Below are positions 4,306 to 33,757 of a stretch of 36,148 nucleotides of DNA, piece by piece (the first letter of the stretch is position 1; each line of letters starts with the position of its first letter). The position numbers were made by a program, and so were the translations under genes. This DNA is from Pseudolabrys sp. (GTDB taxonomy: Bacteria; Pseudomonadota; Alphaproteobacteria; Rhizobiales; Xanthobacteraceae). The notes beneath the pieces are model-generated. The model worked only from the letters and a program-made list of their open reading frames with translations. It was not told the DNA's origin and did not search any database. The stretch spans positions 1 to 36,148 of the forward strand of contig JADGGK010000029.1 of NCBI GenBank assembly GCA_019689975.1, read 5' to 3'.

Positions 4306-4327
4306 TCGACCCGACCGGACCCGGCTC

Positions 4328-6244: not shown

Positions 6245-6320
6245 CCGCGGAAGCCCGTTTGGACCGACGTCTCGCCCGCACGCATCGATGCTTTCCCGCC
6301 GATAAAGGATGCCTACCGCC

Positions 6321-7187
6321 ATGACGCAGCCGCCGCTCTGCCCCGCACCCGACATGAACCTGCGCGCGCCCGCATTCGAGATGCCGGTCGGCGCGACCGA
6401 CACTCATTTTCACCTGTTCGGCGCGCAGGACCGATATCCGCTCGTCGCCTCGCGCGACTACACGCCGCCCTTGGTCACGCCCCTTATGGCCCGCGCCCTG
6501 TTCGCAAAGCTGAACGTCCACCGCGCCGTGGTCATTCAGCCGAGCGTCTACGGTCACGACAACCGTGCGCAGCTCGAGGGTGCGCGCGAAATCGGCATCC
6601 CCGTTCGCGCCGTCGTCGTTCTCGACAAGCGGGTCAGCGACGAGGAAATCCGGCGGCTGCACGAGGCCGGCGCGCGCGGCCTGCGTTACGTCCTTGCCCA
6701 TCCCGGCGGATTGCCGCTTTCCGACCTCGAATGGTGGGCCGATCGCCTGCGCGAGCACGGCTGGCACATTCAGTTTCTGGCGAAGGGCGCCCAGCTGGTC
6801 GAACTCGAATCGCGCATCGAGAAGCTCGGCTGTCCGGCGGTCATCGACCACATGGGCATGTTCCGGCCCGAGGATGGCGTGGAGCAACCGGCATTTCGCG
6901 CCGTGCTGCGGCTGGTCGGCAAAGGCCACTGGGTCAAGCTGTCCGGCGCGTACCGACTGTCGATGCAACCGCCGCCGTTTCCGGATCTCCTGCCTTATGT
7001 CGAGGCGTTCGTGAAGGAAAATCCCGAACGCCTTTTGTGGGCGAGCGACTGGCCGCATGTCTTCGTCAAGACGACGATGCCGAATACGACCGATCTTCTC
7101 GATGCCTTGGGCGAATGGGTACCCGACGCGAGGCTGCGCAACCGCATTCTTGTCGACAACCCGGCGCGACTGTACCAGTTCGCGTAG
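6321..7187 (+). CDS. Amidohydrolase family protein, 2-pyrone-4,6-dicarboxylate lactonase-like
   Basis: A 288-residue TIM-barrel hydrolase of amidohydrolase family 2. Metal or substrate motifs visible are DTHFH (27-31) at the end of strand 1, the strand-6 region VIDHMGMF, and the catalytic-Asp motif WASDWPH near the C terminus. This set matches 2-pyrone-4,6-dicarboxylate hydrolase (LigI) and related lactonases such as 4-sulfomuconolactonase. The reaction is probably hydrolysis of a lactone or a cyclic or amide carboxylate taken up by the TRAP system just upstream. The start at 6321 (AAAGG about 11 nt upstream) was preferred over the ATG at 6309, which overlaps that site. The exact substrate is unknown. 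Confidence 0.85.
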   Translation: MTQPPLCPAPDMNLRAPAFEMPVGATDTHFHLFGAQDRYPLVASRDYTPPLVTPLMARALFAKLNVHRAVVIQPSVYGHDNRAQLEGAREIGIPVRAVVVLDKRVSDEEIRRLHEAGARGLRYVLAHPGGLPLSDLEWWADRLREHGWHIQFLAKGAQLVELESRIEKLGCPAVIDHMGMFRPEDGVEQPAFRAVLRLVGKGHWVKLSGAYRLSMQPPPFPDLLPYVEAFVKENPERLLWASDWPHVFVKTTMPNTTDLLDALGEWVPDARLRNRILVDNPARLYQFA

Positions 7188-7785: not shown

Positions 7786-8625
7786 ATGTCAAAGCCGCTG
7801 AGCATCCTGCAAGGCCGCTTCGGGCGGGTCGCCCTGCTCGAAATGGATCGCTCGCTGGTCACTCACGCCCATCGCGATTGCCACGTCCTGCTCAAGTTCA
7901 GTGGTGCCGACACCGCCTTCGATGTGCGAGGTCGAACCTGTCGCCTGACCGATGCGACGGCGGTCTTGGTGAATGCTTGGGAGCCGCACGCCTACACCCA
8001 CGGCGACCATGCACCGCAAACAGTGATCCTTGCCCTCTATATCGACCCGACCTGGCTCGGCATGATCGATCCGCGCCTGCTCTGTTCCGGTCATTCCCAG
8101 TTCTTTCCGCGTCCCTGCGTCTACGTCACCCGCGAAATTTGCGAGAGTACCCTTTTGCTCGGCAGTCGGATGCTGCTCGGCGATATCGTGTCGACGCAGG
8201 AGGCGGAAATCGCCGTCTTCAACCTCATGATCCGGGTCATCGACGCCTTCTCCGACCGCAAGGTGCTCTGCCGCGAGAAGCCTCCGCTCGTCGTCTCAGA
8301 CCACCGCATCCGCCGTGTGCTGCGCTACATGCGCAAGACGCTGGGCGAGCCGTTCGACACCCGCACGCTGGCCAAAATCGCCGGCCTGTCGCGACCGCAT
8401 TTTTTTGCGCAATTCAAGCGCAATACGGGCCTCACACCGTCCCTGTTCCTCAACACGATACGGATGGAGGCGGCCACCCGCATCCTGATCGAGTCCGAGG
8501 AGCCGCTGTCCGGCGTCGCGCTCGGGCTCGGCTTCGATGCGCATTCCAATTTCACCCGCTTTTTCCGCCAACATCAGGGTGTAACGCCGTCCGAATATCG
8601 AAGGGCCACCCAGGTCTTCGCTTAA
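7786..8625 (+). CDS. AraC family transcriptional regulator
   Basis: A 279-residue regulator. The N-terminal half is a cupin-like sensing domain (VNAWEPHAYTHGD is typical). The C-terminal 100 residues are the AraC DNA-binding domain with two helix-turn-helix units: DTRTLAKIAGLSRPHFFAQFKRNTG first, then GVALGLGFDAHSNFTRFFRQHQGVTPSEYRR. It lies downstream of the TRAP and hydrolase genes and upstream of the molybdoenzyme operon, all on the same strand, so it could control either. Sequence alone does not decide. Effector ligands of this class are often small carboxylates or aldehydes, which would fit both neighbours. Confidence 0.93.
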   Translation: MSKPLSILQGRFGRVALLEMDRSLVTHAHRDCHVLLKFSGADTAFDVRGRTCRLTDATAVLVNAWEPHAYTHGDHAPQTVILALYIDPTWLGMIDPRLLCSGHSQFFPRPCVYVTREICESTLLLGSRMLLGDIVSTQEAEIAVFNLMIRVIDAFSDRKVLCREKPPLVVSDHRIRRVLRYMRKTLGEPFDTRTLAKIAGLSRPHFFAQFKRNTGLTPSLFLNTIRMEAATRILIESEEPLSGVALGLGFDAHSNFTRFFRQHQGVTPSEYRRATQVFA

Positions 8626-9352: not shown

Positions 9353-12334
9353 GTGAAGAGCGCTTCGGTCGTATCAGCCCCGGCCGCGTCACGGCGCTGG
9401 GTGGGCGCCGCCGTCCCACGCAAGGAGGACGAAGCGCTGCTCACCGGGCGGGCGCGTTTCATCGACGACCTCGCTCCGCTACCAGGTCTGACCTTCGCCG
9501 CCATCCTGCGCTCCCCGCATGCGCATGCGCGCATTCTCGGCATTGACGTTCGGCGCGCGCTCGCGCTCCCCGGCGTGCGCGGCGTCGTCACCGGACGCGA
9601 GATTGCCGAGGTGATCGGACCGATTGCGAGCGTCGTAAGGGCGCCGTTCGCCTATTATCCGATTGCGCTTGATCGCGTGCGTTATGTCGGGGAGCCGGTG
9701 GCGGTCGTGGTGGCGGACAGCCGCTACATCGCCGAGGACGCCTGCGAGCTGATTGACGTCGGTTACGAGCCATTGCCGGCGGTCGCCGATCTCGCCAGCG
9801 CCCGCGCGCCGGGCGCCCCTTTGCTGCACGACAATACCACGTCCAACGTCATAAGCCGCCGGACGTTCCGCTACGGCGATCCGGAATCCGCCTTCGCCGC
9901 CGCCGATCGCATATTCGAGTTCTCCTATTCCTATCCGCGCTACGCTTCGACGCCGATGGAGACCTTCGGCGTCATCGCGCATTTCGAGCGCGCGCCCGAT
10001 CGTTATACCGTCTGGTCCAATTTTCAGGGTCCCTTTGTGATCCAGCCGCTGATGGCCGGTGCGCTGCGCGTACCCGGCCATCGCCTACGCTTGATCACGC
10101 CGCCGGCAAGCGGAGGCAGCTTCGGTATCAAGCAGGCCGTGCTCTCCTACATCGTGCTGCTCGCCGCGGTGAGCCGCAAGGTCGGTTTGCCGGTGAAATG
10201 GATCGAGGATCGCGCTGAACATCTGAGTGCCGCCTCGGCGGCCAGCGATCGCCTCGGATCGGTTGCCGCCGCTTTCCGCAACGACGGCAAGTTGCTGGCG
10301 CTCAAGTTCCACAACGTCGCCAACATGGGCGCCTACATACGACCGCCGGAGCCCGCTTCGCTCTACCGCATGCATGCGGCCTCGAATGGCAGTTATGCGG
10401 TCGAGAACATCGCCGTCGAGAACGAACTCGTTGTCACCAATACGACGCCGGTGGGCCTCAACCGCGGTTACGGCGGACCGCAATTCTATTTCGCGCTCGA
10501 ACGGGTGATGGAGATTGCCGCGCGCGGCCTCGGCATCGATCCGGCCGAACTTCGCCGACGGAATTTCATTCCGGCCGATCGTTTCCCGTATCGGGCGCCG
10601 GCCGGCGCGGTGTTCGACTCGGGCGATTATCCGCGGGCACTCGACGAATTGCTCCGCATCGCCGACTATGAAGGCCTGCAACGGCGGCGCGAGCAGGCAC
10701 GCCGTGACGGCAGATTATTCGGCATCGGCTTTGCCGCGGGAGTCGAGCCTTCCGGTTCCAACATGGCCTATGTTTCGCTCGCGCAAACCGCGGAAGAGCG
10801 CAGCCGCGGCGAACGCAAGTCGGGCGCCAATGCCAGCGCCGTTCTGCAGGTCGATCCGAGCGGACAAGTGACGCTCAGGATTTGTAGCACGCCGAATGGG
10901 CAAGGCCATGCGACCGTGGCCGCGCAGATCGTAGCTGATGCTCTCGGTCTCGACCCCGCCGACATCGACGTCGTCACCGATATCGATACGCTCACCAGCG
11001 CCTGGTCGATCGCCTCGGGCAATTACTCCAATCGTTTCGCCGCGATAGTGGTCGACGCGGTGGCGAAGTCGGCGCGCCAGGTTGCGGATAAGATCAGGCT
11101 TATGGCTGCGGAAGCGCTCGATGCGACCCCCGAAGAAATCGATCTGAGTGACGGTTACGCGCGGGTGCGCGGCTCCAACAGGGCCCTGCCTTTCCGCAAG
11201 GTGGCGGCGCGAGCGCACTGGGATCCGGCCGGATTGCCGCCCGGTACGGCGCCCGGCATCGTCGAAACCGCTGTGGTGTCGCCTCCGTTACTCGGTTCTC
11301 CCGATGTGAAGGACCGCGTGGCCTCGGCGACGACCTTCGGCTTCGTCGTGGATCTTGCGGCGGTCGAAATCGACCGGGCGACGGGGATTTTGCATATCGA
11401 GAAATACGCCTCCGTTCACGACGTTGGCACTCAACTCAACCCGAAGATCGTGGAGGGGCAGGTTCACGGCGGCTTCGCGCACGGCCTCGGCGCCGCGCTG
11501 TTCGAGGAACTGGCCTACGATGAACAAGGCAATTTCCTGTCCGGGACTTTCGCCGATTATTTGTGCCCGACCGCGATGGAAGTCCCTCCGCTCGATGTGG
11601 GACACATCGAGACGGTTTCGCCGGCCAATGCCCTCGGAGCCAAGGGCATGGGCGACGGCAGCTCCATGCTCACGCCGGCAGCCATCGCCAACGCGGTCGC
11701 CGACGCGCTCGGCCGCGATGACGTCACGCTGCCGCTGACGTTGCAGCGGGTCTGGGCGCTGGCTAACGGTCGCGAATACGAGCGCGCGGCGCCGGGCCGG
11801 CGGGCCACACCGCGCCGCACACGGGTTTCGGGCGGCGCGCTGAACGGCGGCGGCGAGATCGTGCTGTCGGCACCGATCGCCGAAGTATGGCGAAGGCTGC
11901 TCGATCCGAACGAGTTGAGCGCCATCGTTCCCGGTTGCCGAACTCTCCGGCAAGAGGGCAATGACCGCTATGTCGCGGAAGTAACAATCGGGGTCGCCGG
12001 CATCCGCGGCACCTATGGCGTTACGATCGATTTGCGCGACAGGCGGGAAGGCCAATCGGTACGGTTCGTCGGAAAGGCCACGGGCGCGCTCGGCTTCGGC
12101 ACGGGATCGGGGCTTGTCACGCTGCAAGCGGAGCCCGACGGGCGTACCCGCCTGCACTACGAGTATGAAGCCGAGGTGGGCGGCAAGGTGGCCGCGGTCG
12201 GTCAACGCATGCTCGGCAGCGTGGTGCGCTTTCTGCTCGCGCAGTTTTTTGATGCGCTGGAACATCGCATCCACGGACGCCGACGCGCCTGGTGGCATAG
12301 CCTGCGCGCCTGGCGAACTCTGTTGCGCGGATGA
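9353..12334 (+). CDS. Xanthine dehydrogenase-family Mo-binding large subunit fused to a CoxG-like SRPBCC domain (HmfA-like)
   Basis: A 993-residue protein; typical large subunits are about 770-800. Residues about 15-130 form the hammerhead domain (EDEALLTGRARFIDDL, SPHAHARI, RYVGEPVAVVVADSR). Residues about 150-810 bind the molybdenum cofactor, with GGSFGIKQ, GLNRGYGGPQ (R371) and GQGHATVAAQ. The catalytic motif normally written GxGE reads GAKGMGDGSS, so Asp768 replaces the expected Glu. Residues about 830-975 form an SRPBCC domain like CoxG (GGGEIVLSAPIAEVWRRLLDP). The role is probably ring hydroxylation using water, working with the next two gene products. Gene order suggests a furoyl-CoA dehydrogenase-like substrate. 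The GTG start has a weak GGACGG site. It is the first gene of the operon. Confidence 0.88.
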   Translation: MKSASVVSAPAASRRWVGAAVPRKEDEALLTGRARFIDDLAPLPGLTFAAILRSPHAHARILGIDVRRALALPGVRGVVTGREIAEVIGPIASVVRAPFAYYPIALDRVRYVGEPVAVVVADSRYIAEDACELIDVGYEPLPAVADLASARAPGAPLLHDNTTSNVISRRTFRYGDPESAFAAADRIFEFSYSYPRYASTPMETFGVIAHFERAPDRYTVWSNFQGPFVIQPLMAGALRVPGHRLRLITPPASGGSFGIKQAVLSYIVLLAAVSRKVGLPVKWIEDRAEHLSAASAASDRLGSVAAAFRNDGKLLALKFHNVANMGAYIRPPEPASLYRMHAASNGSYAVENIAVENELVVTNTTPVGLNRGYGGPQFYFALERVMEIAARGLGIDPAELRRRNFIPADRFPYRAPAGAVFDSGDYPRALDELLRIADYEGLQRRREQARRDGRLFGIGFAAGVEPSGSNMAYVSLAQTAEERSRGERKSGANASAVLQVDPSGQVTLRICSTPNGQGHATVAAQIVADALGLDPADIDVVTDIDTLTSAWSIASGNYSNRFAAIVVDAVAKSARQVADKIRLMAAEALDATPEEIDLSDGYARVRGSNRALPFRKVAARAHWDPAGLPPGTAPGIVETAVVSPPLLGSPDVKDRVASATTFGFVVDLAAVEIDRATGILHIEKYASVHDVGTQLNPKIVEGQVHGGFAHGLGAALFEELAYDEQGNFLSGTFADYLCPTAMEVPPLDVGHIETVSPANALGAKGMGDGSSMLTPAAIANAVADALGRDDVTLPLTLQRVWALANGREYERAAPGRRATPRRTRVSGGALNGGGEIVLSAPIAEVWRRLLDPNELSAIVPGCRTLRQEGNDRYVAEVTIGVAGIRGTYGVTIDLRDRREGQSVRFVGKATGALGFGTGSGLVTLQAEPDGRTRLHYEYEAEVGGKVAAVGQRMLGSVVRFLLAQFFDALEHRIHGRRRAWWHSLRAWRTLLRG

Positions 12335-12352
12335 GCGGATGAAGCGGGTGTC

Positions 12353-13231
12353 ATGAAGCCGGTCGCGTTCGATTATCATCGTCCGGAAACGGTGGCGGAA
12401 GCCGTCGCGCTGCTCGCTGACTTGCGCGATGACGCCATGCCGCTCGCCGGCGGCATGACGCTCGGCCCCATGCTTAACCTTCGCTTGGTGCGTCCGCGGG
12501 CATTGATCGACATTTCGCGCTTGGCAGGCTTGCGACACATTGTGCAGGACGGCGACAAGGTGGTCACGGGCGCAGCCGTGATCCAGAATGACGCGCTGCG
12601 TTCCGATGTCATCAGGCGTCAGGTCCCGCTGCTGGCGCTCGCCCTGCCGTGGGTTGGCCATTTTCAGACGCGCAATCGCGGCACGCTGGGCGGTTCGGTC
12701 GCCCACGCCGATCCGAGCGCCGAAATTCCCCTCTGCCTAACGGTATGCGGCGGGACCGTAGTACTCAGATCGCGACGACGCGAACGGCGCGTGCCGGCAC
12801 GCCGATTCTTCGTGGACGCGCTGACCACGCTGCGCGAGCCGGACGAAATCATCGTCGCCTTGGAATGGCCGCGCGCGCCGGCGCAGTCCGGATGGGGTTT
12901 TGCCGAGATTGCGCAGCGGCACGGCGATTTCGCGATCGCGGCCGCGGCCTGCCGCGCGACGCTTGATGACGAAGGCCGGGTGAAAGATCTCGTGCTGGGC
13001 ATTGCCGGCGTGGAAAGCCGTCCCGTTCTGATCGATACGGAGAATTTCCGCGGTGGCAGATCGACCGAGGTCGGGAAGCATCTATCCGACCATTCCGTTG
13101 CCGGCGTCACGCCGATGGAAGATCACGTCGCGAATGCCGAGTACCGCATTGCTTTGACAAAGGTTCTGGTCGAACGGGTGTTCCGCGACGCCTGCGCGGA
13201 CGCGGAACGGCGAAGGAACAAACTGCAATGA
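12353..13231 (+). CDS. FAD-binding (CoxM-type) subunit of the Mo hydroxylase (HmfB-like)
   Basis: A 292-residue medium subunit. The FAD-binding motifs of the CoxM/XdhB family are clear: LAGGMTLGPMLNLRLVRP (about 32-49), and RNRGTLGGSVAHADPSAEIPL, which binds FAD diphosphate and isoalloxazine. The C-terminal CO-dehydrogenase flavoprotein domain follows (WGFAEIAQRHGDFAIAAAA). The subunit receives electrons from the 2Fe-2S subunit and passes them to an acceptor. It starts 18 bp after the large subunit, and its stop overlaps the next gene's ATG in ATGA, so the three subunits are translationally coupled. The order large-FAD-FeS differs from the coxMSL order of CO dehydrogenase and matches hmfABC. 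Confidence 0.93.
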   Translation: MKPVAFDYHRPETVAEAVALLADLRDDAMPLAGGMTLGPMLNLRLVRPRALIDISRLAGLRHIVQDGDKVVTGAAVIQNDALRSDVIRRQVPLLALALPWVGHFQTRNRGTLGGSVAHADPSAEIPLCLTVCGGTVVLRSRRRERRVPARRFFVDALTTLREPDEIIVALEWPRAPAQSGWGFAEIAQRHGDFAIAAAACRATLDDEGRVKDLVLGIAGVESRPVLIDTENFRGGRSTEVGKHLSDHSVAGVTPMEDHVANAEYRIALTKVLVERVFRDACADAERRRNKLQ

Positions 13232-13731
13232 GCGTGCAAACCTGTCTTGCGGGGCAGAAAGCGACGATCGAACTCACGCTCAATGGTCAACGCCGTTCGG
13301 GCAAGGCCGAACCGCGTCTGCTGCTGTGCGATTTTTTACGCCACGAATTGCAAGCCTTCGGTGTGCATGTCGGTTGCGAGCACGGCATCTGCGGCGCCTG
13401 CACGGTACTGGTCGACGGTCGCGCGGTGCGCAGTTGCACGCAATACGCGGTGCAGGCGGACGGTCGCGACATTGTCACCGTCGAAGGCCTGGCCGAGGCC
13501 GGCACGATGAACGCCTTGCAGCGGGCTTTCGCCAAGCACCACGCGCTGCAATGTGGCTATTGCACGCCGGGCATCTTGTGCTCGGCCACGCATTTCTTGC
13601 GTGAAACGCCCGCTCCGACCGAACGGGAGGTGAGGGATATGTTGTCCGGCCATATCTGCCGTTGCACCGGCTATGCATCGATCGTGGCGGCAATTCTTGA
13701 AGCCGCCGATGCCGTCAGCAGGGGGGCATAG
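13228..13731 (+). CDS. 2Fe-2S (CoxS-type) subunit of the Mo hydroxylase (HmfC-like)
   Basis: A 167-residue small subunit with both expected iron-sulfur clusters. The N-terminal plant-type ferredoxin cluster uses C50, C55, C58 and C70 (CEHGICGAC, then an 11-residue gap before Cys). The C-terminal four-helix cluster uses C109 and C112 (QCGYCTPG) and C144 and C146 (CRCTGY). It carries electrons from the molybdenum site to the FAD subunit. The ATG overlaps the stop of the FAD subunit gene by 4 bases. All eight ligands are intact, so the complex is probably functional. Confidence 0.95.
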   Translation: MSVQTCLAGQKATIELTLNGQRRSGKAEPRLLLCDFLRHELQAFGVHVGCEHGICGACTVLVDGRAVRSCTQYAVQADGRDIVTVEGLAEAGTMNALQRAFAKHHALQCGYCTPGILCSATHFLRETPAPTEREVRDMLSGHICRCTGYASIVAAILEAADAVSRGA

Positions 13732-13733
13732 CA

Positions 13734-15299
13734 ATGGATCTAGGGAGCGTGTTCGCGGTTTCGGTTTTGCGCTGTCCGAACAACGAGGCCTTCGTTGAAG
13801 GCAGTCGCCGCATGACCTACGCGGGCTGGTACCGCGAGATCAAGGCGGTGGCCGGCGGTTTGCGGGAAATGGGGTTGCGCGCCGGCGACCATTTCGTGGT
13901 GGTGATGCGCAATCGCTACGAAATGGCGACGCTTTATTGGGCGTGCCATATGCTGGGAATCATATTTACGCCGGTGAGCTGGCGCGCATCGGCGGACGAG
14001 ATCCGCTACTGCCTGGAGGACGCAAACGCGGCGGCGATCGCGTTTGACGGCGCCGCCGGCGCCGCCGCACCTGACGCGGCCGTCGCCGCCGGCATCGATC
14101 CGCGTCGTACCATCGTGGTGGCCGACGGCAAGGGTGACGGGCGTCCGTTCACCGATTTGCTCGGCGCGCGGCCCGTGGACGGCCCCGCGCGCGTCGACGA
14201 GTTCTCCATCTGCCTGATGCTCTACACTTCGGGCACCACCGGCCGCCCAAAGGGCGTGCCGCGCAGCCATCGTGCCGAATTGGCCGCCTCGATCTCCCAT
14301 ATCGCGCATAACCAATACCGCCACGGGGACTCCTGTCTCGGTGTCATGCCGCTCTTTCACACCATGGGCGTGCGCATCCTGCTGGGATCCGCGTTGCTCA
14401 GCGGTCGCTTGGTGTGCCTGCCGACTTACGAGCCGGAGGAGGTGTTGCGCCTGGTCTCGGCGGAAAAAATCACGACCCTCTTCCTCGTGCCCACGATGTT
14501 CCATGACATTCTGCGACATCCGAAGTTCTCGTCTTATGATCTGCGCTCGTTGTCGCGCGTCGGATACGCGGGCATGACCATGGCGCCGGCGCTCGTCGAG
14601 CAATGTCTTGATGCGCTCGCGCCCGACTTGTTCGTGAACTATTACGGCTCAAGCGAAATCTATACGTTCACCTATTGCGATCATCTCGATCGCAAGCCGG
14701 CCTGTGCCGGACGCGCCGGGCTCAATCAGATCATTCGCGTGGTGTCGCCGTCGCGTAACGACGACATCGAGGTCGATCTGCCTCCGAACACGCCGGGCGA
14801 AATCGTTGCCAGCATGGACAGCCCCGAAGCCTTTCGCGGCTACTGGAAGCGACCGGACGCGGACGCGAAGGCCATCCAGGGGCGATGGTATCGTACCGGC
14901 GATCTCGGCAAGTTCGACGACGATGGTGAGCTTTATGTCGTCGGCCGCGTCGACGACATGATCATTAGCGGCGGCGAGAATATTTATCCCGAGGAAGTCG
15001 AGGACGTACTCATCCGCAGCGGCTTGGTCGTAGGCTGTGCGGTGGTCGGCATGCCGGACGAGCGCCTGGGCGCGAAAGTCGTGGCTTTCGTGGAGCCGGC
15101 CAATTCCGCCGTGACGCCCGCCAAGTTGGACGACGCATGTCTGAAGAGCGGACTCGCGCGTTTCAAACGCCCGCGCGAGTACGTCATGGTCAGATCCATC
15201 CCTCGCTCGGCATCCGGCAAGCTGCTGCGCCGCAAGCTGCGAATGGGTGAATACGAAGCGCTCGACACAAGCAAGATCACAGTAGAGGAGGCCTCATGA
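13734..15299 (+). CDS. AMP-forming acyl-CoA synthetase (HmfD-like)
   Basis: A 521-residue ANL-superfamily ligase of usual length. The ATP-binding loop is YTSGTTGRPKG (164-174). The A5 motif is YYGSSEIYTF. The hinge and adenylate motifs are YRTGDLGKFDDDGELYVVGR, followed by DDMIISGGENIYPEEVE. K496 in RSASGKLLRR is the expected catalytic Lys of adenylation. It should activate a carboxylic acid to its CoA thioester with ATP. Its place between the Mo hydroxylase and an enoyl-CoA hydratase-family gene is that of 2-furoyl-CoA synthetase in the furoate cluster. AGGGGGG precedes the ATG, two bases after the previous stop. Acid specificity is not determined by sequence. Confidence 0.92.
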   Translation: MDLGSVFAVSVLRCPNNEAFVEGSRRMTYAGWYREIKAVAGGLREMGLRAGDHFVVVMRNRYEMATLYWACHMLGIIFTPVSWRASADEIRYCLEDANAAAIAFDGAAGAAAPDAAVAAGIDPRRTIVVADGKGDGRPFTDLLGARPVDGPARVDEFSICLMLYTSGTTGRPKGVPRSHRAELAASISHIAHNQYRHGDSCLGVMPLFHTMGVRILLGSALLSGRLVCLPTYEPEEVLRLVSAEKITTLFLVPTMFHDILRHPKFSSYDLRSLSRVGYAGMTMAPALVEQCLDALAPDLFVNYYGSSEIYTFTYCDHLDRKPACAGRAGLNQIIRVVSPSRNDDIEVDLPPNTPGEIVASMDSPEAFRGYWKRPDADAKAIQGRWYRTGDLGKFDDDGELYVVGRVDDMIISGGENIYPEEVEDVLIRSGLVVGCAVVGMPDERLGAKVVAFVEPANSAVTPAKLDDACLKSGLARFKRPREYVMVRSIPRSASGKLLRRKLRMGEYEALDTSKITVEEAS

Positions 15300-16108
15300 C
15301 TAAAGATTATGCCGCGCTGCGTGCCGCGATCCTCAAGGATCTCGACGGGCTCGCTTATGAGGTCGACGCGACGCGCAAGATCGGCTTCCTCTGGCTCGAC
15401 CGGCCGCCGCTCAACATCGTCTCCTATCGCGGGCGCAGCCAGATCAACGCGATCATGGAGGCTTTCGGCATGGACCCCGACGTGCGGGTGGTCGTGATCC
15501 GCGGACGCAATGGCGTGTTCACTTCGGGCGGTGACGTCAAGGCTTTTCCCCAAATCGAACGCGACGGCATGTCCCATCTCGCTTGGAATATCGCCGCGCC
15601 GGAGCGTTGCCCAAAGCCGGTGATTGCCGTGCTCGAGAAATACGCCATGGGCGTGGGTCTCGAGCTGGCGATGGCGTGCGACATCCGTATCGCCACCAAG
15701 GATACTCTGCTCGCCTTGCCCGAGGTCACGCTTGGCCAGATTCCCGGAAGCGGCGGCAGCCAGCGCATCGCGCGCATTGCGGGTCTCACCCGCGCGGTCG
15801 ACATGATGATGCTCGGCCGCCGCATTCCCGCGCCGGAAGCTTTCGCATGGGGACTCCTCACCCGCGTTGCGCAGGACACCGCCGACCTCGAACGGACGCT
15901 CGACGAGATCGTCAAGACGCTTACCTCGATGTCCGGGCTGGCGCTCAAGACGATCAAACGCGTGCTCAACACGGCCTACGACACGAGCCTGAGCGTCGGC
16001 CTGGAGGTCGAAGGTCACGCTTACGAGAAGCTGCGCGAAAGCCCGGACTACAAGGAAGGCATTGCGGCTTTTGCGGAGAAACGCAAACCGAATTTTACCG
16101 GCATCTAG
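15296..16108 (+). CDS. Enoyl-CoA hydratase/isomerase family protein (HmfE-like)
   Basis: A 270-residue crotonase-fold enzyme. The oxyanion-hole segments are VFTSGGDVKAF (about 74-84) and KYAMGVGLELAMACD. Both catalytic glutamates of classical hydratases are present, E123 (GLELAMACD) and E143 (LPEVTLGQIPGSGGSQR). It therefore probably adds water to an unsaturated or lactone-like CoA ester rather than only isomerising. In furoate degradation the equivalent gene is assigned to hydrolysis or ring opening leading to 2-oxoglutarate. The ATG overlaps the ligase stop (ATGA) and has a GAGGAGG site, so the two are coupled. Confidence 0.92.
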   Translation: MTKDYAALRAAILKDLDGLAYEVDATRKIGFLWLDRPPLNIVSYRGRSQINAIMEAFGMDPDVRVVVIRGRNGVFTSGGDVKAFPQIERDGMSHLAWNIAAPERCPKPVIAVLEKYAMGVGLELAMACDIRIATKDTLLALPEVTLGQIPGSGGSQRIARIAGLTRAVDMMMLGRRIPAPEAFAWGLLTRVAQDTADLERTLDEIVKTLTSMSGLALKTIKRVLNTAYDTSLSVGLEVEGHAYEKLRESPDYKEGIAAFAEKRKPNFTGI

Positions 16109-16136: not shown

Positions 16137-17318
16137 ATGAGTCGATCAAAACCAATGACACGATGGATGACGACGGCGCTTGCATTTGCGTTCGCCGGTC
16201 TTGCCCATGCGGCCGATCCGATCAAGGTCGGCGTGGTGACGCCGCTCTCCGGCAGCTACGCGCCGATCGGCAAGCAGGTGCGTCTGGGCGCCGAACTCGC
16301 GGTAAAGGAAATCAACGCGGCGGGAGGCGTGAATGGCCGGCCGTTCGAGCTTCTGTTCGAGGACGAAGAGGCCAATCCGTCGGTCGCCGTCCGCAAGGCC
16401 GAAAAGCTTCTGCAACAGGACAAGGTGGATCTTCTGACGGGAACGGTCAACAGCGGCGCGACGCTTGCGGTCGGCCAGATTGCGGAACGCAATGATCGTA
16501 TCTTGGTGACGACGGTATCGTACGCACCGTCAATCACGGGTGCGCAATGCAGCCCGAACGTCTTCCGCGTGAACGCCAATGCGTTCATGCAATCGAGCGC
16601 GTTGACCAGTTGGCTGATCAAGAACGTGCCGGGGAAGCGTTACTTCTTCATCGGGCCCGATTATGAAATGGGCCGGAGCACGATTGCGGCGTTCCAGGCC
16701 GACATCAAGCGACTCGGCGGCACTGACACCGGCAGCAGCTTCCCGCCGCTCGGCGCAAAGGACTTCACGCCCTATATCGGGCAAATTCGAGCCGCACGTC
16801 CCGACGTCATCATGACCGCGACCGCGGGCAACGATACCGTCCGCCTGCTCACTCAGCTCAAGGAGTATGGGATTCTGGCGTCCCATCCCCACCTTGCCGG
16901 TGCCGCCGGAGCAGTGACGCAAGAGAATATCGGCGCCATGGCCGGGGCGGCGGAGGGTTTCCTGAGCGCGGCGGGCTACGCGATCGATATCGACACGCCT
17001 GCGAACAAGAAATTCGTGGCCGCCTTCAAGAAGGAATTCCAGACCGAGCCCGACCTGTTCGGCGCGGATACTTACGGTTTGTTCTATCTGTTCAAGCAGG
17101 CGATCGAGAAAGCCGGCGGCACCGATACCGCCAAGCTGCGCGCAGCAATGGAAGACGCCAGCTGGGAAACTCCGCAGGGCATGAAGACGATGCGCAAGGG
17201 CGACCACCAGGCCATCGTCGACATGGTCGTGGTGCAGGTGAAGGGCGACGGATTCCGCACGGTCGGCAGGGTGCCGGGCAATGAGGCAGTGGGCCCGGAC
17301 AACTGCGATCGTTTCTAG
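16137..17318 (+). CDS. ABC transporter substrate-binding protein, Liv/HAAT type (system 1)
   Basis: A 393-residue periplasmic binding protein of the branched-chain amino acid/aromatic acid class. A Sec signal peptide ends at about residue 25 (AHA-AD). The mature start IKVGVVTPLSGSYAPIGKQ is the family signature, followed by GAELAVKEINAAGGVNG and a two-lobed periplasmic fold. The start at 16137 has GGGAGGTAAGG immediately upstream. A longer frame beginning at 16062 overlaps the previous gene and would bury the signal peptide. It is the receptor for the four transport genes that follow. Members of this family bind amino acids, amides, or aromatic and dicarboxylic acids. Placement inside the operon suggests the pathway substrate. 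Confidence 0.94.
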   Translation: MSRSKPMTRWMTTALAFAFAGLAHAADPIKVGVVTPLSGSYAPIGKQVRLGAELAVKEINAAGGVNGRPFELLFEDEEANPSVAVRKAEKLLQQDKVDLLTGTVNSGATLAVGQIAERNDRILVTTVSYAPSITGAQCSPNVFRVNANAFMQSSALTSWLIKNVPGKRYFFIGPDYEMGRSTIAAFQADIKRLGGTDTGSSFPPLGAKDFTPYIGQIRAARPDVIMTATAGNDTVRLLTQLKEYGILASHPHLAGAAGAVTQENIGAMAGAAEGFLSAAGYAIDIDTPANKKFVAAFKKEFQTEPDLFGADTYGLFYLFKQAIEKAGGTDTAKLRAAMEDASWETPQGMKTMRKGDHQAIVDMVVVQVKGDGFRTVGRVPGNEAVGPDNCDRF

Positions 17319-17345
17319 GCAGGAAGCGGTGACGCGAGCGGTCCG

Positions 17346-18239
17346 ATGCAAGATCTGTTGAGTTATCTTCACCTCGTGGTCCTGCCGCAGATGGTCGATG
17401 CCCTGATCGTCGGGGCGGCGCTCGCGCTGGTAGCGCTCGGGCTCACCATGATCTTCGGACTGCTCGACGTCATCAACCTCGCGCACGGCGACCTTTACAT
17501 GCTCGGCGGCTATGCCGCCTTCACGTTGATCGGGTGGGGCGCCGGCTATTGGGGCGCATTGGTGCTCGTACCCGTGCTCGTGGCCATCGTCGGCTGGGGA
17601 TTGGAGGAACTCGGTATCCGGCCATTGTTGCCGCGATCGGATCGTGCCGTCGTGACGCTGCTGTTGACGTTCGGTGCCAGTCTCATGCTGCGCGACTTTG
17701 CGCAAGTCGTATGGGGAACCGACACGCATGCAATCCAGGCGCCCTTTTCGGGTGTCATAAGCGTCGCGCAAGTCTTCGTGCCGGCCTATCGTTTGTTTGT
17801 TTTCGGCGCGGCGCTGGCGGCGATCTTTCTCACATGGTGGCTGATCTACCGCACACGCATCGGCGCGGTGTTGCGGGCGACCGCTGCCGATCCGGTCATG
17901 GTCGCCTCGTTCGGCATCCCCGTGCGCTGGGTCTACGGCTCCGCATTCATGTACGGCTGCGGTCTGGCCGGTCTGGCCGGCGTGCTTCTCGGACCGATCT
18001 ACGCCGTGTTTCCAACAATGGGACATGACTTTCTGGTGATGGCGTTCGCCGTCGTCATTGTCGGCGGCATGGGCAGCATCGTCGGTGCGGTCGTGGCGGC
18101 ACTTGCGCTCGCGCAAATCCAGGGACTCGCAAGTCTCTGGATTCCCCCGGTATGGGCTGAAACCTTGGTCTACGGGGTCATGCTGCTCGTCCTCATCGTT
18201 CGCCCGGCCGGGCTGTTCCGCCGATTCGGGGAGGCGTGA
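17346..18239 (+). CDS. ABC transporter permease, LivH type (system 1)
   Basis: A 297-residue inner-membrane permease with about eight hydrophobic segments. The LivH hallmark DVINLAHGDLYMLGGYA lies near residues 41-57, and the conserved C-terminal AFAVVIVGGMGSIVGAVV marks the ATPase-coupling region. It pairs with the LivM-type protein encoded next, forming a heterodimeric channel. Its stop overlaps the next gene's start by one base (TGATG). No strong ribosome binding site lies directly before the ATG, 27 bp after the binding-protein gene. Confidence 0.93.
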   Translation: MQDLLSYLHLVVLPQMVDALIVGAALALVALGLTMIFGLLDVINLAHGDLYMLGGYAAFTLIGWGAGYWGALVLVPVLVAIVGWGLEELGIRPLLPRSDRAVVTLLLTFGASLMLRDFAQVVWGTDTHAIQAPFSGVISVAQVFVPAYRLFVFGAALAAIFLTWWLIYRTRIGAVLRATAADPVMVASFGIPVRWVYGSAFMYGCGLAGLAGVLLGPIYAVFPTMGHDFLVMAFAVVIVGGMGSIVGAVVAALALAQIQGLASLWIPPVWAETLVYGVMLLVLIVRPAGLFRRFGEA

Positions 18240-19297
18240 TGCTGCGGACGGAGACCTCGCGGTTCAGAGGCGCGTCCTGGTCGTGGCGCAACGCCTGGCC
18301 GAAGGTGGGCGAACGCCTGATGCGGGCACTGGCATCGCCTGATCCTCGCCCCTTGCGCGGCTTCGGCCTTCTCATGCTGATCGCTGCCGCGGTTTTTCCC
18401 TGTATCAGCGGTTCGTTCTACATGCGGCTCGGCATCGAGTCGTTGCTGCTCGGCACGGTCGCGCTGAGTGTCGACGTGCTCTTGGGTTGCGCGGGGCTCC
18501 TTTCACTCGGCCAGGCCGCGTATTTCGGTCTCGCGGCTTACATCTCGGCGCTAATGTATCTGCACGTGACCCGGTCGTTCTGGCTGGTCATGTTGGCGGT
18601 GATCGGCGCCGTCGCGGTTTTCTCCCTTGCACTGGGAGCCGTCGCCATTCGGGCGCGCGGGGTCTATTTCGCACTGATTACTTTCAGCGCCGCGGAAATC
18701 CTATCCAAGATCGCACACAACACGCGCGAAATCGGCGGCTCGGACGGCCTCATCGGGATTCCCATCCCGAGCATCGCGTTGGCCCCGGGCCTCGATATCG
18801 ATCTGCACAACAACACGGCCTTTTATTATGTCGTGCTCGCGGCGTTGACACTCATTTATCTCGGCACGCGACGTATCCTCGATACCGGGTTCGGGAGCGT
18901 ATTGCGCGCGGTGCGCGACAATGCCGATCGCGTATCGTTCCTCGGTTACAACCCGTTTTGGTACAAGCTCTTCGCCTATGTGATGGCGGCGCAAATTGCC
19001 GCTTTTGGCGGCATGATTTACCCGTTATTGCGCGGCTTCGTGGCGCCCCACCTTCTGGGGTTCGAGGTGTCGACCAAGGCCGTCGTGGTCTCGCTGATGG
19101 GCGGCATCGGTACGCTGCTCGGCCCGCTCGTCGGCAGCATCATCGTCACTTTCTTGGAATCCGTGATCGGAAGCTACACCGAGCGCCACCTTTTCGTGCT
19201 CGGCGGGATATTCGTCGTCTTCGTATTGTTTCTGCCGGACGGCTTGTTCGGCTTGGCGCGGAGACTTGCGGCCAAGCGGGCGGAGCATCGCTCATGA
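18239..19297 (+). CDS. ABC transporter permease, LivM type (system 1)
   Basis: A 352-residue inner-membrane permease. A basic cytosolic N-terminal extension of about 40 residues precedes the membrane segments. The family motif LLGCAGLLSLGQAAYFGLAAY and the C-terminal VVSLMGGIGTLLGPLVGS are present. I chose the ATG at 18239, which overlaps the LivH stop as TGATG and follows GGGGAGG. An in-frame GTG one codon earlier is nearly as likely. Its own stop overlaps the LivG-type ATG in ATGA. It forms the channel with the LivH-type protein. Confidence 0.92.
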   Translation: MLRTETSRFRGASWSWRNAWPKVGERLMRALASPDPRPLRGFGLLMLIAAAVFPCISGSFYMRLGIESLLLGTVALSVDVLLGCAGLLSLGQAAYFGLAAYISALMYLHVTRSFWLVMLAVIGAVAVFSLALGAVAIRARGVYFALITFSAAEILSKIAHNTREIGGSDGLIGIPIPSIALAPGLDIDLHNNTAFYYVVLAALTLIYLGTRRILDTGFGSVLRAVRDNADRVSFLGYNPFWYKLFAYVMAAQIAAFGGMIYPLLRGFVAPHLLGFEVSTKAVVVSLMGGIGTLLGPLVGSIIVTFLESVIGSYTERHLFVLGGIFVVFVLFLPDGLFGLARRLAAKRAEHRS

Positions 19298-20037
19298 TCA
19301 AAGTCACGGCATTGACCAAGGCCTTCGGAGGCTTGCGGGCCGTCAACGGTCTCAGCTTCGAAGCGGCGCCCGGGCGTATCACGTCGATCATCGGACCCAA
19401 CGGCGCCGGCAAGAGCACGGTGTTCAACCTGATCATGGGGCGCCTGCGCCCCGATTCGGGCACGATCGAGCTTGAAGGCCGCGACGTCACCGGCCGGCCG
19501 CCTTACGCGCTTGCCCGCATGGGGTTGGCCCGCTCGTTTCAGATCACGAATCTGTTTTTCGGCCTCACCGTTTTCGAGAACGTCCGTCTGGCATGCCAGT
19601 CGCGCGAACCGCGCCATTACTTTTTACGACCGGTCGGCCGCATGCCGAATGCGACGACGCGCGCGGAGGCGATTCTCGCCGATTTCGGATTGCGCGATCG
19701 TGCGAACGAGCTCGTGCGTAATCTCTCGCATGGAGATCAGCGGCGCGTGGAGATTGCGGTCTGCATGGCGCTCGAGCCGCGCGTACTTATGCTGGATGAG
19801 CCGACGCAGGGCATGTCGCCTGCGGAGACCACGGAATTCGACGGGCTGATCAAGAGCCTTGCCGGGCGTTTGACCGTCCTTCTGATCGAACACGACGTCG
19901 ATCTGGTCATGAGCCTTTCGGATCACGTCATAGTCATGCATCAGGGCGAAAAGCTATTCGAGGGCAGTCCCGAGGCAGTACGCGCGAGCGCGCGCGTGCG
20001 CGACGCCTATCTGGGGGTCGATCATGGCACTGCTTGA
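19294..20037 (+). CDS. ABC transporter ATP-binding protein, LivG type (system 1)
   Basis: A 247-residue ATPase. Walker A is GPNGAGKST (34-42), the signature is LSHGDQRRVEIA (from 144), and Walker B is VLMLDEP (164-170) followed by TQGMSP. The switch His is in LLIEHDVDLVM. The LSHGDQR form of the signature is normal for LivG. The start is the ATG overlapping the LivM stop. The open frame extends far upstream, but that part is a shadow of LivM. It works with the LivF-type ATPase, whose gene overlaps its end by 14 bases. Confidence 0.94.
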   Translation: MIKVTALTKAFGGLRAVNGLSFEAAPGRITSIIGPNGAGKSTVFNLIMGRLRPDSGTIELEGRDVTGRPPYALARMGLARSFQITNLFFGLTVFENVRLACQSREPRHYFLRPVGRMPNATTRAEAILADFGLRDRANELVRNLSHGDQRRVEIAVCMALEPRVLMLDEPTQGMSPAETTEFDGLIKSLAGRLTVLLIEHDVDLVMSLSDHVIVMHQGEKLFEGSPEAVRASARVRDAYLGVDHGTA

Positions 20038-20734: not shown

Positions 20735-20747
20735 GAGGATGGATGAA

Positions 20748-21338
20748 ATGACGACGCCTACCGTCGATGAAATTGACAGTGACAAGGGAAAGATCGGCCG
20801 GGCGCCCGTGGGGCTGAACTGGCCGCAGCAAGTTTTCCAGAAGCTGCGCGAGGCCGAGATCCGCCAGGTCGTCTACGTCCCCGACGCCGGACATGCGCGC
20901 CTGATAGAACTCTGCCACGCCGCCTCCGATATGAAGACAACCGTGCTCACAACGGAGGAGGAAGGCGTCGGTATCCTTGCTGGAGCCTGGCTTGGCGGCG
21001 AGCGTGGCGTTCTGCTGATGCAAAGCAGCGGCGTCGGTAATTGCATCAACGCGCTTTCGCTCGCGCGGGTTTGTCGGTTCCCGCTGGTCATGATCGTTAC
21101 GATGCGCGGCCAATGGGGGGAGATCAATCCCTGGCAGGTGCCCATGGGGCAGATTACGGGTGACAATTTACGGCTTGCCGGGGCAGTCGTGTACGAGGTG
21201 TGGGAGCAGGAGTCGGCGGCGAGCGCGGTTGAGGCCGCCATGCGCATTGCGTTCAACGGCGGGTTTACCGCGGCGGTTTTGCTCTCGCAACGCATGCTCG
21301 GGACGAAGCTGTTCAAGGACTCAAGCCATGGACGATAA
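20748..21338 (+). CDS. ThDP-dependent decarboxylase, N-terminal (PYR) subunit, sulfopyruvate decarboxylase alpha-like
   Basis: A 196-residue protein with only the pyrimidine-binding domain of ThDP enzymes. The motif TTEEEGVGILAGAWLGG (68-84) supplies the Glu (about E71) that activates ThDP. The following LLMQSSGVGNCINAL closely resembles ComD, the alpha subunit of sulfopyruvate decarboxylase, and phosphonopyruvate decarboxylases. The partner domain is encoded by the next gene, whose start overlaps by 11 bases. AAGAGG lies 9 nt before the chosen ATG; an in-frame ATG at 20739 lies too close to it. The likely reaction is non-oxidative decarboxylation of a 2-oxo acid to an aldehyde. Sulfopyruvate itself is not implied by the context. 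Confidence 0.85.
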   Translation: MTTPTVDEIDSDKGKIGRAPVGLNWPQQVFQKLREAEIRQVVYVPDAGHARLIELCHAASDMKTTVLTTEEEGVGILAGAWLGGERGVLLMQSSGVGNCINALSLARVCRFPLVMIVTMRGQWGEINPWQVPMGQITGDNLRLAGAVVYEVWEQESAASAVEAAMRIAFNGGFTAAVLLSQRMLGTKLFKDSSHGR

Positions 21339-21924
21339 TGAAGACAAACTTCGCCGTCGCCAAACGGTCGCGCGCATCCTGGCCGATCGCGGCGATGCGC
21401 TGGTTGTCACGGGCCTCGGCTCGCCGACCTATGATTGCGCGGCTGCCGGCGACCATCCGCTCAACTTCTATCTTTGGGGTGCAATGGGCAGTGCCGTGAC
21501 GGTGGGGCTCGGCCTTGCACTTGCGCAGCCGCGACGCCGTGTCCTGGTCCTTACCGGAGACGGCGAATTGCTGATGGGACTCGGGGCCCTCGCCACCGTG
21601 GCAGCGCGAAAGCCGGATAATCTTGCCATCGTGGTGATCGACAACGAACACTACGGAGAGACCGGCATGCAACGCACCCATACCCATGCCGGCGTCGACC
21701 TGGCCGGCATCGCGCGCGCCTGCGGCTTTCGCGAGGCGACGACGGTGCGCCGCGCTAACGAACTGAACGATACCGCTCGTTTGCTGTACAAGGCGCAGGG
21801 GCCGGTGCTGGTCGACATAAAAGTCTCGGCGACGCGAGATCCGCTCGTGCTGCCACCTTGGGACGGGCCATTTCTCAAGACGCGCTTTCGTCAAGCCCTG
21901 CTTGGCGCGAAGACCGCAGCGTAG
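21328..21924 (+). CDS. ThDP-dependent decarboxylase, C-terminal (PP) subunit, sulfopyruvate decarboxylase beta-like
   Basis: A 198-residue protein with the diphosphate-binding domain of ThDP enzymes. The ThDP/Mg motif begins GDGELLMGLGAL (77 onward) and ends at the Asn in VVIDNEHYGETG (N106). The upstream LWGAMGSAVTVGLGLALAQP is also typical. It matches the ComE type (beta subunit). With the preceding gene it makes a split enzyme lacking the middle domain found in single-chain 2-oxo acid decarboxylases. AAGGA lies about 8 nt upstream of the ATG, inside the previous gene. The next gene is an aldehyde dehydrogenase, which fits disposal of an aldehyde product. Confidence 0.85.
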   Translation: MDDNEDKLRRRQTVARILADRGDALVVTGLGSPTYDCAAAGDHPLNFYLWGAMGSAVTVGLGLALAQPRRRVLVLTGDGELLMGLGALATVAARKPDNLAIVVIDNEHYGETGMQRTHTHAGVDLAGIARACGFREATTVRRANELNDTARLLYKAQGPVLVDIKVSATRDPLVLPPWDGPFLKTRFRQALLGAKTAA

Positions 21925-21944: not shown

Positions 21945-23450
21945 ATGGCGAACTTGGCCACGACGTCAAATCTTCCCACTTATAAAATGTTCATTGGCGG
22001 AGAATGGGTCGAGGCGAAATCCGGTGAATGGTTCGAGAGCTACGATCCCTATGTCGGCCGCCCGTGGGCGCTCGTCGCCCGCGGCGGGCGCGCCGACGTC
22101 GATCAGGCCGTGGCGGCGGCCGATGCCGCGTTCCGCTCGGGCGATTGGCCGAAGCTCAAGCCCACCCAGCGGGGCGCATTGTTGCGCCGCCTTGGCGACC
22201 TGATCGCGCGGGACGCCGAGCGACTTGCGGCGATCGAGGTGCGCGACAACGGCAAGCTCATCGCCGAGATGGGCGCGCAGCTTCGTTATTTGCCTCAATG
22301 GTACTACTACTACGGCGGTCTTGCCGACAAAATCGAAGGCGCGGTCATTCCTATCGACAAGGCGGAGACGTTCAATTTTACGCGCTATGAGCCGATCGGC
22401 GTGGTGGCCGCGATCACGCCGTGGAATTCGCCGTTGCTGCTGGCATCTTGGAAAATCGCGCCGGCGCTCGCGGCCGGCTGCACGCTCGTGCTCAAGCCGT
22501 CCGAGCATACCTCGGTCTCGGCACTCGAATTCTGCAAGCTGATCGAAGAGGCGGGTTTCCCGAAAGGCGTGTTCAACGTGGTCACGGGTTTCGGAGCGGA
22601 AGTCGGCGAGCCGCTGGTGGCCCATCCCAAGGTCGCCAAGATTGCTTTCACCGGCGGCGAGGCAGGCGGGCAGAAAGTCTACGAAACGGCGGCGCGCGGC
22701 CTCAAGGCGGTGACGCTCGAATTGGGCGGCAAATCGCCCAACATCGTGTTCGAAGACGCCGCGATGGACGACGCCGTCAAGGGCGTGATCTCCGGCATTT
22801 TCGCGGCAACAGGGCAGACCTGCATCGCCGGCTCGCGCTTGCTCGTGCAACGCACCATCGAAGACGCGTTCACCGAGAAGCTGTTGGCGCTTGCCGCGAC
22901 CGCGCGCATGGGCAATCCGATGGATCCCGATACGCAGGTCGGGCCGGTGACGACCCGCGAGCAGTATCAGAAGATCCTGAGCTATATCGATATCGCGCGG
23001 CGGGAGGGCGCGACGCTCAAACTCGGCGGTGGCCCGGCGAAGCGACCGGAATGCGGCGACGGATGGTTCGTCGAGCCGACCATCTTCTCCAAGGTGAACA
23101 ATCAAATGCGCATCGCCCGCGAAGAAGTGTTCGGCCCGGTCCTTTCAATCATTCCGTTCGAAGACGACGAAGAGGCGATCGCGATCGCCAACGACAGCCC
23201 CTACGGCCTCGCGGCGGGTGTCTGGACTACCAGCATCAAGCGGGCTATTCGCATGAGCGAGCGGCTGGAAGCCGGGTCGGTGTGGGTCAACACCTATCGT
23301 GCGGTGAGCTTCATGTCGCCGTTTGGAGGCTACAAGCGCTCGGGACTCGGACGTGAAAACGGGCAAGAGGCGATCTGGAGCTATCTGCAAACAAAGAGCG
23401 TCTGGATTTCAACCGCCGACTCCGTCGCCAACCCCTTTGTTTTGCGGTGA
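21945..23450 (+). CDS. Aldehyde dehydrogenase family protein, NAD(P)+-dependent
   Basis: A 501-residue enzyme of normal length. The catalytic Cys is C293 in ATGQTCIAGSR, the general-base Glu is E259 in TLELGGKSPNIVF, and the oxyanion Asn is N161 in TPWNSPL. Cofactor-binding KPSE and TGG regions are present. It oxidises an aldehyde to an acid. The obvious candidate is the aldehyde made by the decarboxylase encoded just before, but an aldehyde form of the imported substrate is also possible. The start at 21945 has AGAGGTG upstream and gives the usual ALDH N terminus (YKMFIGGEWVEA). The open frame before it has no support. Confidence 0.94.
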   Translation: MANLATTSNLPTYKMFIGGEWVEAKSGEWFESYDPYVGRPWALVARGGRADVDQAVAAADAAFRSGDWPKLKPTQRGALLRRLGDLIARDAERLAAIEVRDNGKLIAEMGAQLRYLPQWYYYYGGLADKIEGAVIPIDKAETFNFTRYEPIGVVAAITPWNSPLLLASWKIAPALAAGCTLVLKPSEHTSVSALEFCKLIEEAGFPKGVFNVVTGFGAEVGEPLVAHPKVAKIAFTGGEAGGQKVYETAARGLKAVTLELGGKSPNIVFEDAAMDDAVKGVISGIFAATGQTCIAGSRLLVQRTIEDAFTEKLLALAATARMGNPMDPDTQVGPVTTREQYQKILSYIDIARREGATLKLGGGPAKRPECGDGWFVEPTIFSKVNNQMRIAREEVFGPVLSIIPFEDDEEAIAIANDSPYGLAAGVWTTSIKRAIRMSERLEAGSVWVNTYRAVSFMSPFGGYKRSGLGRENGQEAIWSYLQTKSVWISTADSVANPFVLR

Positions 23451-27902: not shown

Positions 27903-28060
27903 TTCTGTTCCTCCGCCTTTTTTTAGGCGCGCGAGATGCGTTCGCACGACAATGGATCCGCGGTCCCGGAAGGGGCCGCCGACGAGTTCGGCATTCGACG
28001 AAAATCGGACGCCACCACGTTTCGGTTAAGAACACTTGGGCACGGACTGCCATAGGTCAA

Positions 28061-28088
28061 ATTGTTTATCATTATTGTTACGATCATT
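28061..28088. promoter_or_regulatory. Tandem direct repeat ATTGTT-n-ATCATT, candidate operator
   Basis: ATTGTTTATCATT (28061-28073) is followed at once by ATTGTTACGATCATT (28074-28088). Both copies are ATTGTT then ATCATT, with a 1-nt or 3-nt spacer. It lies about 160 bp upstream of the TTG start of the binding-protein gene, in one of the most AT-rich spots of the window. It looks like a pair of regulator binding sites. Confidence 0.4.
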
Positions 28089-28239
28089 GACAGTGATTCC
28101 GGCATGCCCAGCGCGCTGGATTTGGCGCGTGAATTGCAATCGTTGCGACCCAAGCATGGACCATTGGCGCTCGTAGCCGCGTCCCGGCGCGGGCTCGTCG
28201 ATGCCCGGGAGTGTCCAACCGCGCCATGCCCGCATTAGA

Positions 28240-28256
28240 AATCATAAATTATGATT
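28240..28256. promoter_or_regulatory. Palindrome AATCATAAATTATGATT, candidate operator
   Basis: AATCATAA and TTATGATT are exact inverses around one central base. The ATCAT core is shared with the tandem repeat 150 bp away, so one regulator may bind both. No candidate regulator gene is directly adjacent; the nearest is the LysR gene at 35042. Confidence 0.45.
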
Positions 28257-33748: not shown

Positions 33749-33757
33749 AGGTCATCG

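Follow-up and report, generated by a model that had tools for sequence, protein, structure and literature searches.

Does an operon with the gene content and gene order of hmfABCDE necessarily degrade furoate? The question is raised by a stretch of 36,148 nucleotides from Pseudolabrys sp. (contig JADGGK010000029.1, assembly GCA_019689975.1; hereafter, the window), in which a preliminary description made from the letters alone had reported five adjacent genes at positions 9353-16108, encoding a Mo-binding subunit, an FAD subunit, a 2Fe-2S subunit, an acyl-CoA ligase, and a crotonase, and had likened them to hmfABCDE. Open reading frames (ORFs) and Pfam domains agree with this gene content. In sequence comparisons, the genes fall into a clade apart from the hmf genes described so far; they probably form an hmf-type (furoate-type) catabolic operon acting on 2-furoate or a close five-ring relative. 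The class of pathway is well supported, and an hmf-like mode of working is likely.

Five adjacent genes of hmf type

The plus strand of this region carries five neighboring ORFs of 993, 292, 167, 521, and 270 aa, joined by 4-base overlaps or separated by gaps of at most 18 bases, and all Pfam domains of their products exceed the curated cut-offs. The large subunit contains Ald_Xan_dh_C, MoCoBD_1, and MoCoBD_2 as well as a C-terminal CoxG-like domain (COXG, residues 834-973), which the preliminary description had not mentioned. Together with its FAD partner (FAD_binding_5 and CO_deh_flav_C) and its 2Fe-2S partner (Fer2 and Fer2_2), it presents the domain set of the xanthine oxidase family. The ligase contains AMP-binding and AMP-binding_C, and the crotonase ECH_1. 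The genes are annotated as follows:

9353..12334, plus strand: HmfA-like Mo-binding subunit with a C-terminal CoxG domain and Asp768 at the position of the catalytic Glu (Pfam, trees, motif)
12353..13231, plus strand: HmfB-like FAD subunit (Pfam; 39-51% identity to nine hmf-type clusters)
13228..13731, plus strand: HmfC-like 2Fe-2S subunit (Pfam; 53-64% identity to nine hmf-type clusters)
13734..15299, plus strand: HmfD-like acyl-CoA ligase (Pfam, tree, pocket positions)
15296..16108, plus strand: HmfE-like crotonase retaining the crotonase glutamates E123 and E143 (Pfam, tree, alignment)

Both crotonase glutamates are present in all 41 aligned HmfE sequences. The five genes are under purifying selection, with NG86 dN/dS values of 0.06-0.21 against two other loci (L053 and L054; loci are numbered L and genomes G), which makes decay unlikely. 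Since the same gene order also recurs in other replicons, the arrangement goes beyond chance.

The same five enzymes occur in the same order in hmfABCDE of Cupriavidus basilensis HMF14 (proteins ADE20399-ADE20403 in GenBank) and Pseudomonas pseudoalcaligenes CECT 5344, and an AraC-type regulator is shared with the hmf genes of Pseudomonas putida Fu1 and CECT 5344, as described in excerpts of PMC6678421. As a proxy for the furoate/hydroxymethylfurfural (HMF) system of HMF14, we used annotated Cupriavidus/Paraburkholderia plasmid clusters. A tblastn search of plasmids with the window ligase gave 55 records, all with less than 60% identity; neighborhoods were opened at 10 of the 40 places listed, two of which carried no annotation there. 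Three annotated Cupriavidus/Paraburkholderia clusters combine hmfABCDE-like genes with UbiD and UbiX (and two of the three with a GMC gene); the window proteins are 41-64% identical to the Cupriavidus/Paraburkholderia clusters carrying UbiD and UbiX. The order AraC-hmfABCDE-ABC importer is common to the window and the alphaproteobacterial loci L012, L013, and L015, and was also found by tblastn in L074, L075, L076, L082, and L084. Identities to nine plasmid clusters are 48-51% for HmfA, 39-51% for HmfB, 53-64% for HmfC, 46-50% for HmfD, and 45-54% for HmfE, ranges that exclude Halorussus L017, where identities are 32-46%; the split HmfA of Bosea gives 50 and 45% in its two pieces, and the stand-alone CoxG of Geobacillus is 35% identical. 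The closest values for HmfE (54%) and HmfA (51%) among ten plasmid loci are those of Geobacillus kaustophilus plasmid pHTA426 (L011), where the genes for the Mo, FAD, and 2Fe-2S subunits, ligase, and crotonase are ordered as in the window. Unlike the window, L011 has CoxG as a gene of its own, adjacent XdhC and MobA-like genes, and a conserved catalytic Glu.

A separate clade of hmf genes

Alignments and trees with hmf proteins, which the preliminary description had suggested as a check, were made for HmfA, HmfD, and HmfE; they upheld the kinship with hmf but placed the window in a clade of its own. This clade, which we call hmf-II, stands apart in all three trees from the clade (hmf-I) that includes the UbiD/UbiX-bearing Cupriavidus/Paraburkholderia clusters. 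The same split appears among 46 HmfD, 41 HmfE, and 35 HmfA sequences: hmf-II contains 18, 16, and 10 of them, respectively (support 100/99, 100/99, and 100/100), and hmf-I 24, 24, and 23 (support 100/99, 99/98, and 100/100). In none of these trees does the window fall inside the clade of clusters that have hmfF-like and hmfH-like genes and serve as proxies for HMF14. hmf-I and hmf-II are sisters under a midpoint root in the HmfD and HmfA trees with Geobacillus and Halorussus rows, and with 88% SH-aLRT support in an HmfA tree with Mo-hydroxylase outgroups (nine, hand-picked from 30 loci); the HmfE tree has no outgroup. The large subunit did not group with nicotinate or CO dehydrogenase clades, the outcome that the preliminary description had named as contrary to its proposal.

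Scanning named genomes with the ligase yielded 13 loci at 50-77% identity, 12 of them from Alphaproteobacteria or subgroups and one from Flavobacteriales according to their titles, which label 12 of the 13 as metagenome-assembled genomes. Among 120 relatives, 25 have an HmfD match at E <= 1e-100, and among 385 genomes of the class, 21 have one at E <= 1e-140 (three best candidates scored per genome), the window genome being counted in each. Matches in 13 other genomes of the same genus are 47-50% identical, and the five same-genus genomes included in the trees (G007, G010, G015, G032, and G033) belong to hmf-I. No genome among the 120 relatives and the 385 members of the class had two HmfD matches over the limits, a result with little power either way. 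Listings of the open-access literature showed no paper that distinguishes several clades among hmf genes. hmf-II would represent an alphaproteobacterial lineage that degrades furan-type acids and on which this literature likewise yielded no paper.

Departures from the described hmf genes

Of the likeness to hmfABCDE put forward in the preliminary description, the content and the order stand, and the AraC regulator and the ABC importer match hmf clusters as well, whereas HmfA, HmfD, and HmfE lie outside the clade carrying the other hmf genes and have an altered catalytic base and ligase pocket. The window differs from hmfABCDE of HMF14 and CECT 5344 in these respects and in the decarboxylase and aldehyde dehydrogenase genes located 3' of the operon. 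Several observations, set out in this section, weigh against a furoate-type assignment. Identities to Cupriavidus necator NH9 are 49% (HmfA), 44% (HmfB), 64% (HmfC), 46% (HmfD), and 47% (HmfE); those between HMF14 and CECT 5344, both furan users, are given in an excerpt of PMC6678421 as 64, 59, 77, 61, and 80% from A to E, so the window lies further out. No UbiD, UbiX, or GMC genes were seen among the window genes scanned, and the furoate pathway as described has no role for the 2-oxoacid decarboxylase or the aldehyde dehydrogenase.

One departure concerns the catalytic Glu of the KGxGE motif typical of the xanthine oxidase family, which the window HmfA lacks. In a first alignment, the motif reads KGMGD or KGLGD in all ten hmf-II sequences and retains Glu in 24 of the 25 others; the remaining sequence, L012, is gapped here. 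In phmmer comparisons with Protein Data Bank (PDB) chains, Asp768 lines up with the Glu found in CoxL chains and in quinoline 2-oxidoreductase. Wider sampling, covering 397 genomes of the order and 398 of the phylum with the two best candidates per genome scored, found Asp in all 12 hmf-II sequences and Glu in all 60 of the rest; this set contains two identical pairs and omits L012, whose hmfA is annotated as two pieces. On an HmfA tree built without the motif stretch, the replacement of Glu by Asp is a single change. A separate survey of the motif, in which some loci are also included twice, gave 46 matches with 39 Glu, five Asp (all hmf-II), one L, and one H, the last two being register shifts of a GEPP motif as judged by eye; 15 loci yielded no residue at this position. 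Tyr373, also considered as a clade marker, was discarded, as Phe occurs in the hmf-II locus L186 and Tyr in the outgroups L011 and L017.

We take Asp768 to occupy the same position as E1266 of mouse aldehyde oxidase 3. That glutamate hydrogen-bonds the Mo-OH group and is essential for starting the base-catalyzed reaction, according to an excerpt of PMC3864932. From the sequences compared, the Glu-to-Asp change in hmf-II HmfA is new here, and listings of the open-access literature showed no paper on a Mo hydroxylase of the Asp type. Provided that it is active, the Asp enzyme would be a natural test of how the Mo-hydroxylase base works, since all 60 other aligned sequences have Glu at this residue. 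A further HmfA-like branch of about 980 aa (L097, L102, L103, L174, L175, and L176) has the motif KGIAEGNQY; the neighborhoods of this type that were examined (L101, L102, and L103) contained no adjoining hmfE-like gene and no close hmfD, and the branch is possibly another hydroxylase type.

The ligase also differs between the clades, at nine positions that are at least 90% conserved in each. Four of these are F208, F250, F256, and M281 in hmf-II as opposed to Tyr, Tyr, Tyr, and Ala in hmf-I. F250 corresponds to F249 and M281 to A282 of 4-chlorobenzoate-CoA ligase, and F208 directly precedes the His aligned to H207 (numbering counted by hand); the region of F208, F250, and M281 presumably lines the acyl pocket.

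Neighboring genes

The operon is flanked by genes for a regulator, a branched-chain-type importer (16137-20734), a thiamine pyrophosphate (TPP)-dependent enzyme, and, beyond it, an aldehyde dehydrogenase:

7786..8625, plus strand: AraC-family regulator (HTH_18; 42-50% identity to the AraC 5' of hmfA in L012-L015)
16137..17318, plus strand: ABC importer substrate-binding protein (Peripla_BP_6; 55-60% identity to L012, L013, and L015)
17346-18239 and 18236-19297, plus strand: two ABC importer permeases (BPD_transp_2)
about 19294-20037 and 20024-20734, plus strand: two ABC importer ATPases (the first a tblastn match, the second ABC_tran)
20739..21338, plus strand: TPP-dependent 2-oxoacid decarboxylase alpha subunit, sulfopyruvate-decarboxylase-like (family-model matches)
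21328..21924, plus strand: TPP-dependent 2-oxoacid decarboxylase beta subunit (NCBIfam match)
21945..23450, plus strand: aldehyde dehydrogenase (Aldedh; best NCBIfam models betaine-aldehyde dehydrogenase and HpaE, under cut-off)

The enzyme encoded at 20739-21924 is related, by its family-model matches, to sulfopyruvate decarboxylase. A true sulfopyruvate decarboxylase was rejected on its scores (TIGR03845, 119.8 of 147.95 bits; TIGR03846, 148.9 of 221.5 bits). A decarboxylase lies beside nine of 20 hmf-II loci (the window, L053, L054, L056, L059, L060, L061, L065, and L185), and the 26 hmf-I loci compared (24 plus two shorter ones) yielded neither of its subunits; several of the 11 hmf-II loci without it are short or end within the operon (L055, L057, L064, and L186). 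An aldehyde dehydrogenase of at least 65% identity is present in seven of the 20 hmf-II loci, and less similar ones occur near the hmf-I loci L013 and L076 (33%) and the hmf-II locus L067 (42%). Three layouts were seen: hmfABCDE-ABC importer-decarboxylase (window, L053, and L054); decarboxylase-aldehyde dehydrogenase-hmfABCDE-AraC (L185); and hmfDE followed by two decarboxylase pairs and an aldehyde dehydrogenase, with no hmfABC beside them (L056, L059, L060, L061, and L065). In three genomes of the last type (G328, G418, and G495), the best HmfA match is 46% identical. The association with hmf-II is suggestive only, because beta-subunit homologs occur in 19 of the 24 genomes searched, hmf-I ones among them, and the branching of the beta-subunit tree is not resolved. 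The other genomic contexts of the decarboxylase vary and give no pointer to its function.

Some record names of the third layout look marine. hmf-II hmfDE genes without adjoining hmfABC (L056, L058, L059, L061, and L065) have an FMN-reductase gene directly 5' and three DUF1989 genes side by side, the domain assignments being those of L056; gene calls are crude in some neighbor loci, including L056 and L149. A TauD-family dioxygenase gene lies 3' of the decarboxylase in L054 (12762-13667), and another, 35% identical to it, adjoins a 62% identical aldehyde dehydrogenase in L149 (3363-4319).

Proposed pathway and substrate

With the roles described for hmf proteins in excerpts of PMC6678421 and PMC12064950 as a guide, we infer the following reactions. 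The ABC importer would take up a small five-ring heteroaromatic acid, which the HmfD-like ligase would convert to its CoA thioester. The HmfABC-like Mo hydroxylase would then place oxygen from water onto the ring carbon next to the heteroatom, with Asp768 replacing Glu as the base. The hydroxylated ring would tautomerize and open, and the HmfE-like crotonase would hydrate or hydrolyze the product towards 2-oxoglutarate. A side branch supplying acid to the ligase is the most likely role of the 2-oxoacid decarboxylase and the aldehyde dehydrogenase.

Gene order alone is insufficient ground for naming such clusters "furoate". That hmf-II is a divergent 2-furoate pathway with the substrate and products of C. 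basilensis HmfABCDE, in which Asp is tolerated, falls only a little short of probable. Besides the gene order and regulator type shared with hmf clusters, the importer speaks for it: the binding protein of L185 is on average 67% identical to eight hmf-I binding proteins and 58% to that of the window, although HmfA and HmfD of that locus belong to hmf-II, and mean identity between the clades is 60% for binding proteins versus 48% for HmfA or HmfD. Both likenesses favor 2-furoate or something close, although the binding-protein tree leaves the placement of L185 undecided; we give them about the same weight as the pocket changes. The Glu-to-Asp change throughout the clade argues the other way, as do the four ligase substitutions in or next to the acyl pocket.

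These same changes could instead be adaptations to another five-ring acid (such as thiophene-2-carboxylate, pyrrole-2-carboxylate, or a substituted furoate), a tentative reading with which the consistent contrast in the HmfA base, the Tyr-to-Phe and Ala-to-Met changes in the ligase, and the restriction of the linked decarboxylase to hmf-II among the loci compared agree. The evidence indicates no named substrate, however, no sulfide- or ammonia-handling gene was recognized beside the operon, and the binding protein of L185 points elsewhere. Listings of the open-access literature showed no Mo-hydroxylase genes for the breakdown of thiophene-2-carboxylate or pyrrole-2-carboxylate, and no such operon; hmf-II would provide candidate genes for it.

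A role for the decarboxylase and aldehyde dehydrogenase downstream of ring opening, converting a 2-oxoacid via a semialdehyde to a diacid, instead of ahead of the ligase, is rather unlikely. The kinship of the decarboxylase with enzymes of small anionic 2-oxoacids fits this role, but the enzyme does not occur in the available stretch of the hmf-II loci L062, L063, L066, L067, L068, and L071, and the aldehyde dehydrogenase has no match in G126, G184, and G243 (E <= 1e-130) and only a 49% match in G397, so the pair looks optional; these four genomes have an unlinked beta-subunit match of 56-60%. Similarly speculative, and in our view improbable, is a separate catabolic system in which the Asp-base hydroxylases of hmf-II act not on 2-furoyl-CoA but on another heteroaryl-CoA, possibly thiophene-2-carboxyl-CoA, with the two enzymes feeding the system by a mandelate-like side route.

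Finally, a CO dehydrogenase or other named Mo hydroxylase standing by chance next to a ligase and a crotonase is hardly credible, as the preliminary description had argued for CO dehydrogenase: the fold, the three-subunit domain set, and the CoxG-like domain are shared with aerobic CO dehydrogenase (CoxL, CoxM, CoxS, and CoxG), whose large chain is the best PDB sequence match, but the scores rule out the named families, being far under the NCBIfam cut-offs for CO dehydrogenase (459 of 991 bits) and 4-hydroxybenzoyl-CoA reductase (TIGR03194, 411 of 995 bits), the loop reads NRGYGGPQ where CoxL chains have a Cys-containing one, HmfA lies closer in the tree to its hmf counterparts than to the nine other Mo hydroxylases, and the neighboring ligase and crotonase are conserved.

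Other genes

The amidohydrolase at 6309-7187 is a possible candidate for the missing lactone hydrolase; among NCBIfam models it matches only that of 4-sulfomuconolactone hydrolase, under cut-off (191.8 of 500 bits), and no match was reported in the other hmf loci compared. The hmf-II operons of L062 and L063 have FAD-dependent (DAO) oxidoreductase genes nearby, with an Ldh_2 dehydrogenase gene directly before hmfA in L063. Formation of pyrrole-2-carboxylate from hydroxyproline, at which these L062 DAO and L063 Ldh_2 genes hint, was discarded with NCBIfam models far under cut-off.

Elsewhere in the window, positions 3295-7187 contain TRAP transporter genes (SBP and fused QM) with this Amidohydro_2 gene after them, and a PF09948 (named PpoB2, copper chaperone) and DUF1326 gene pair lies on the minus strand at 886-2394. 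At 26718-36001, a second branched-chain-type ABC importer accompanied by genes for a carbon-nitrogen hydrolase, a MaoC-like hydratase, a class III CoA transferase, and a LysR protein looks like a further catabolic unit.

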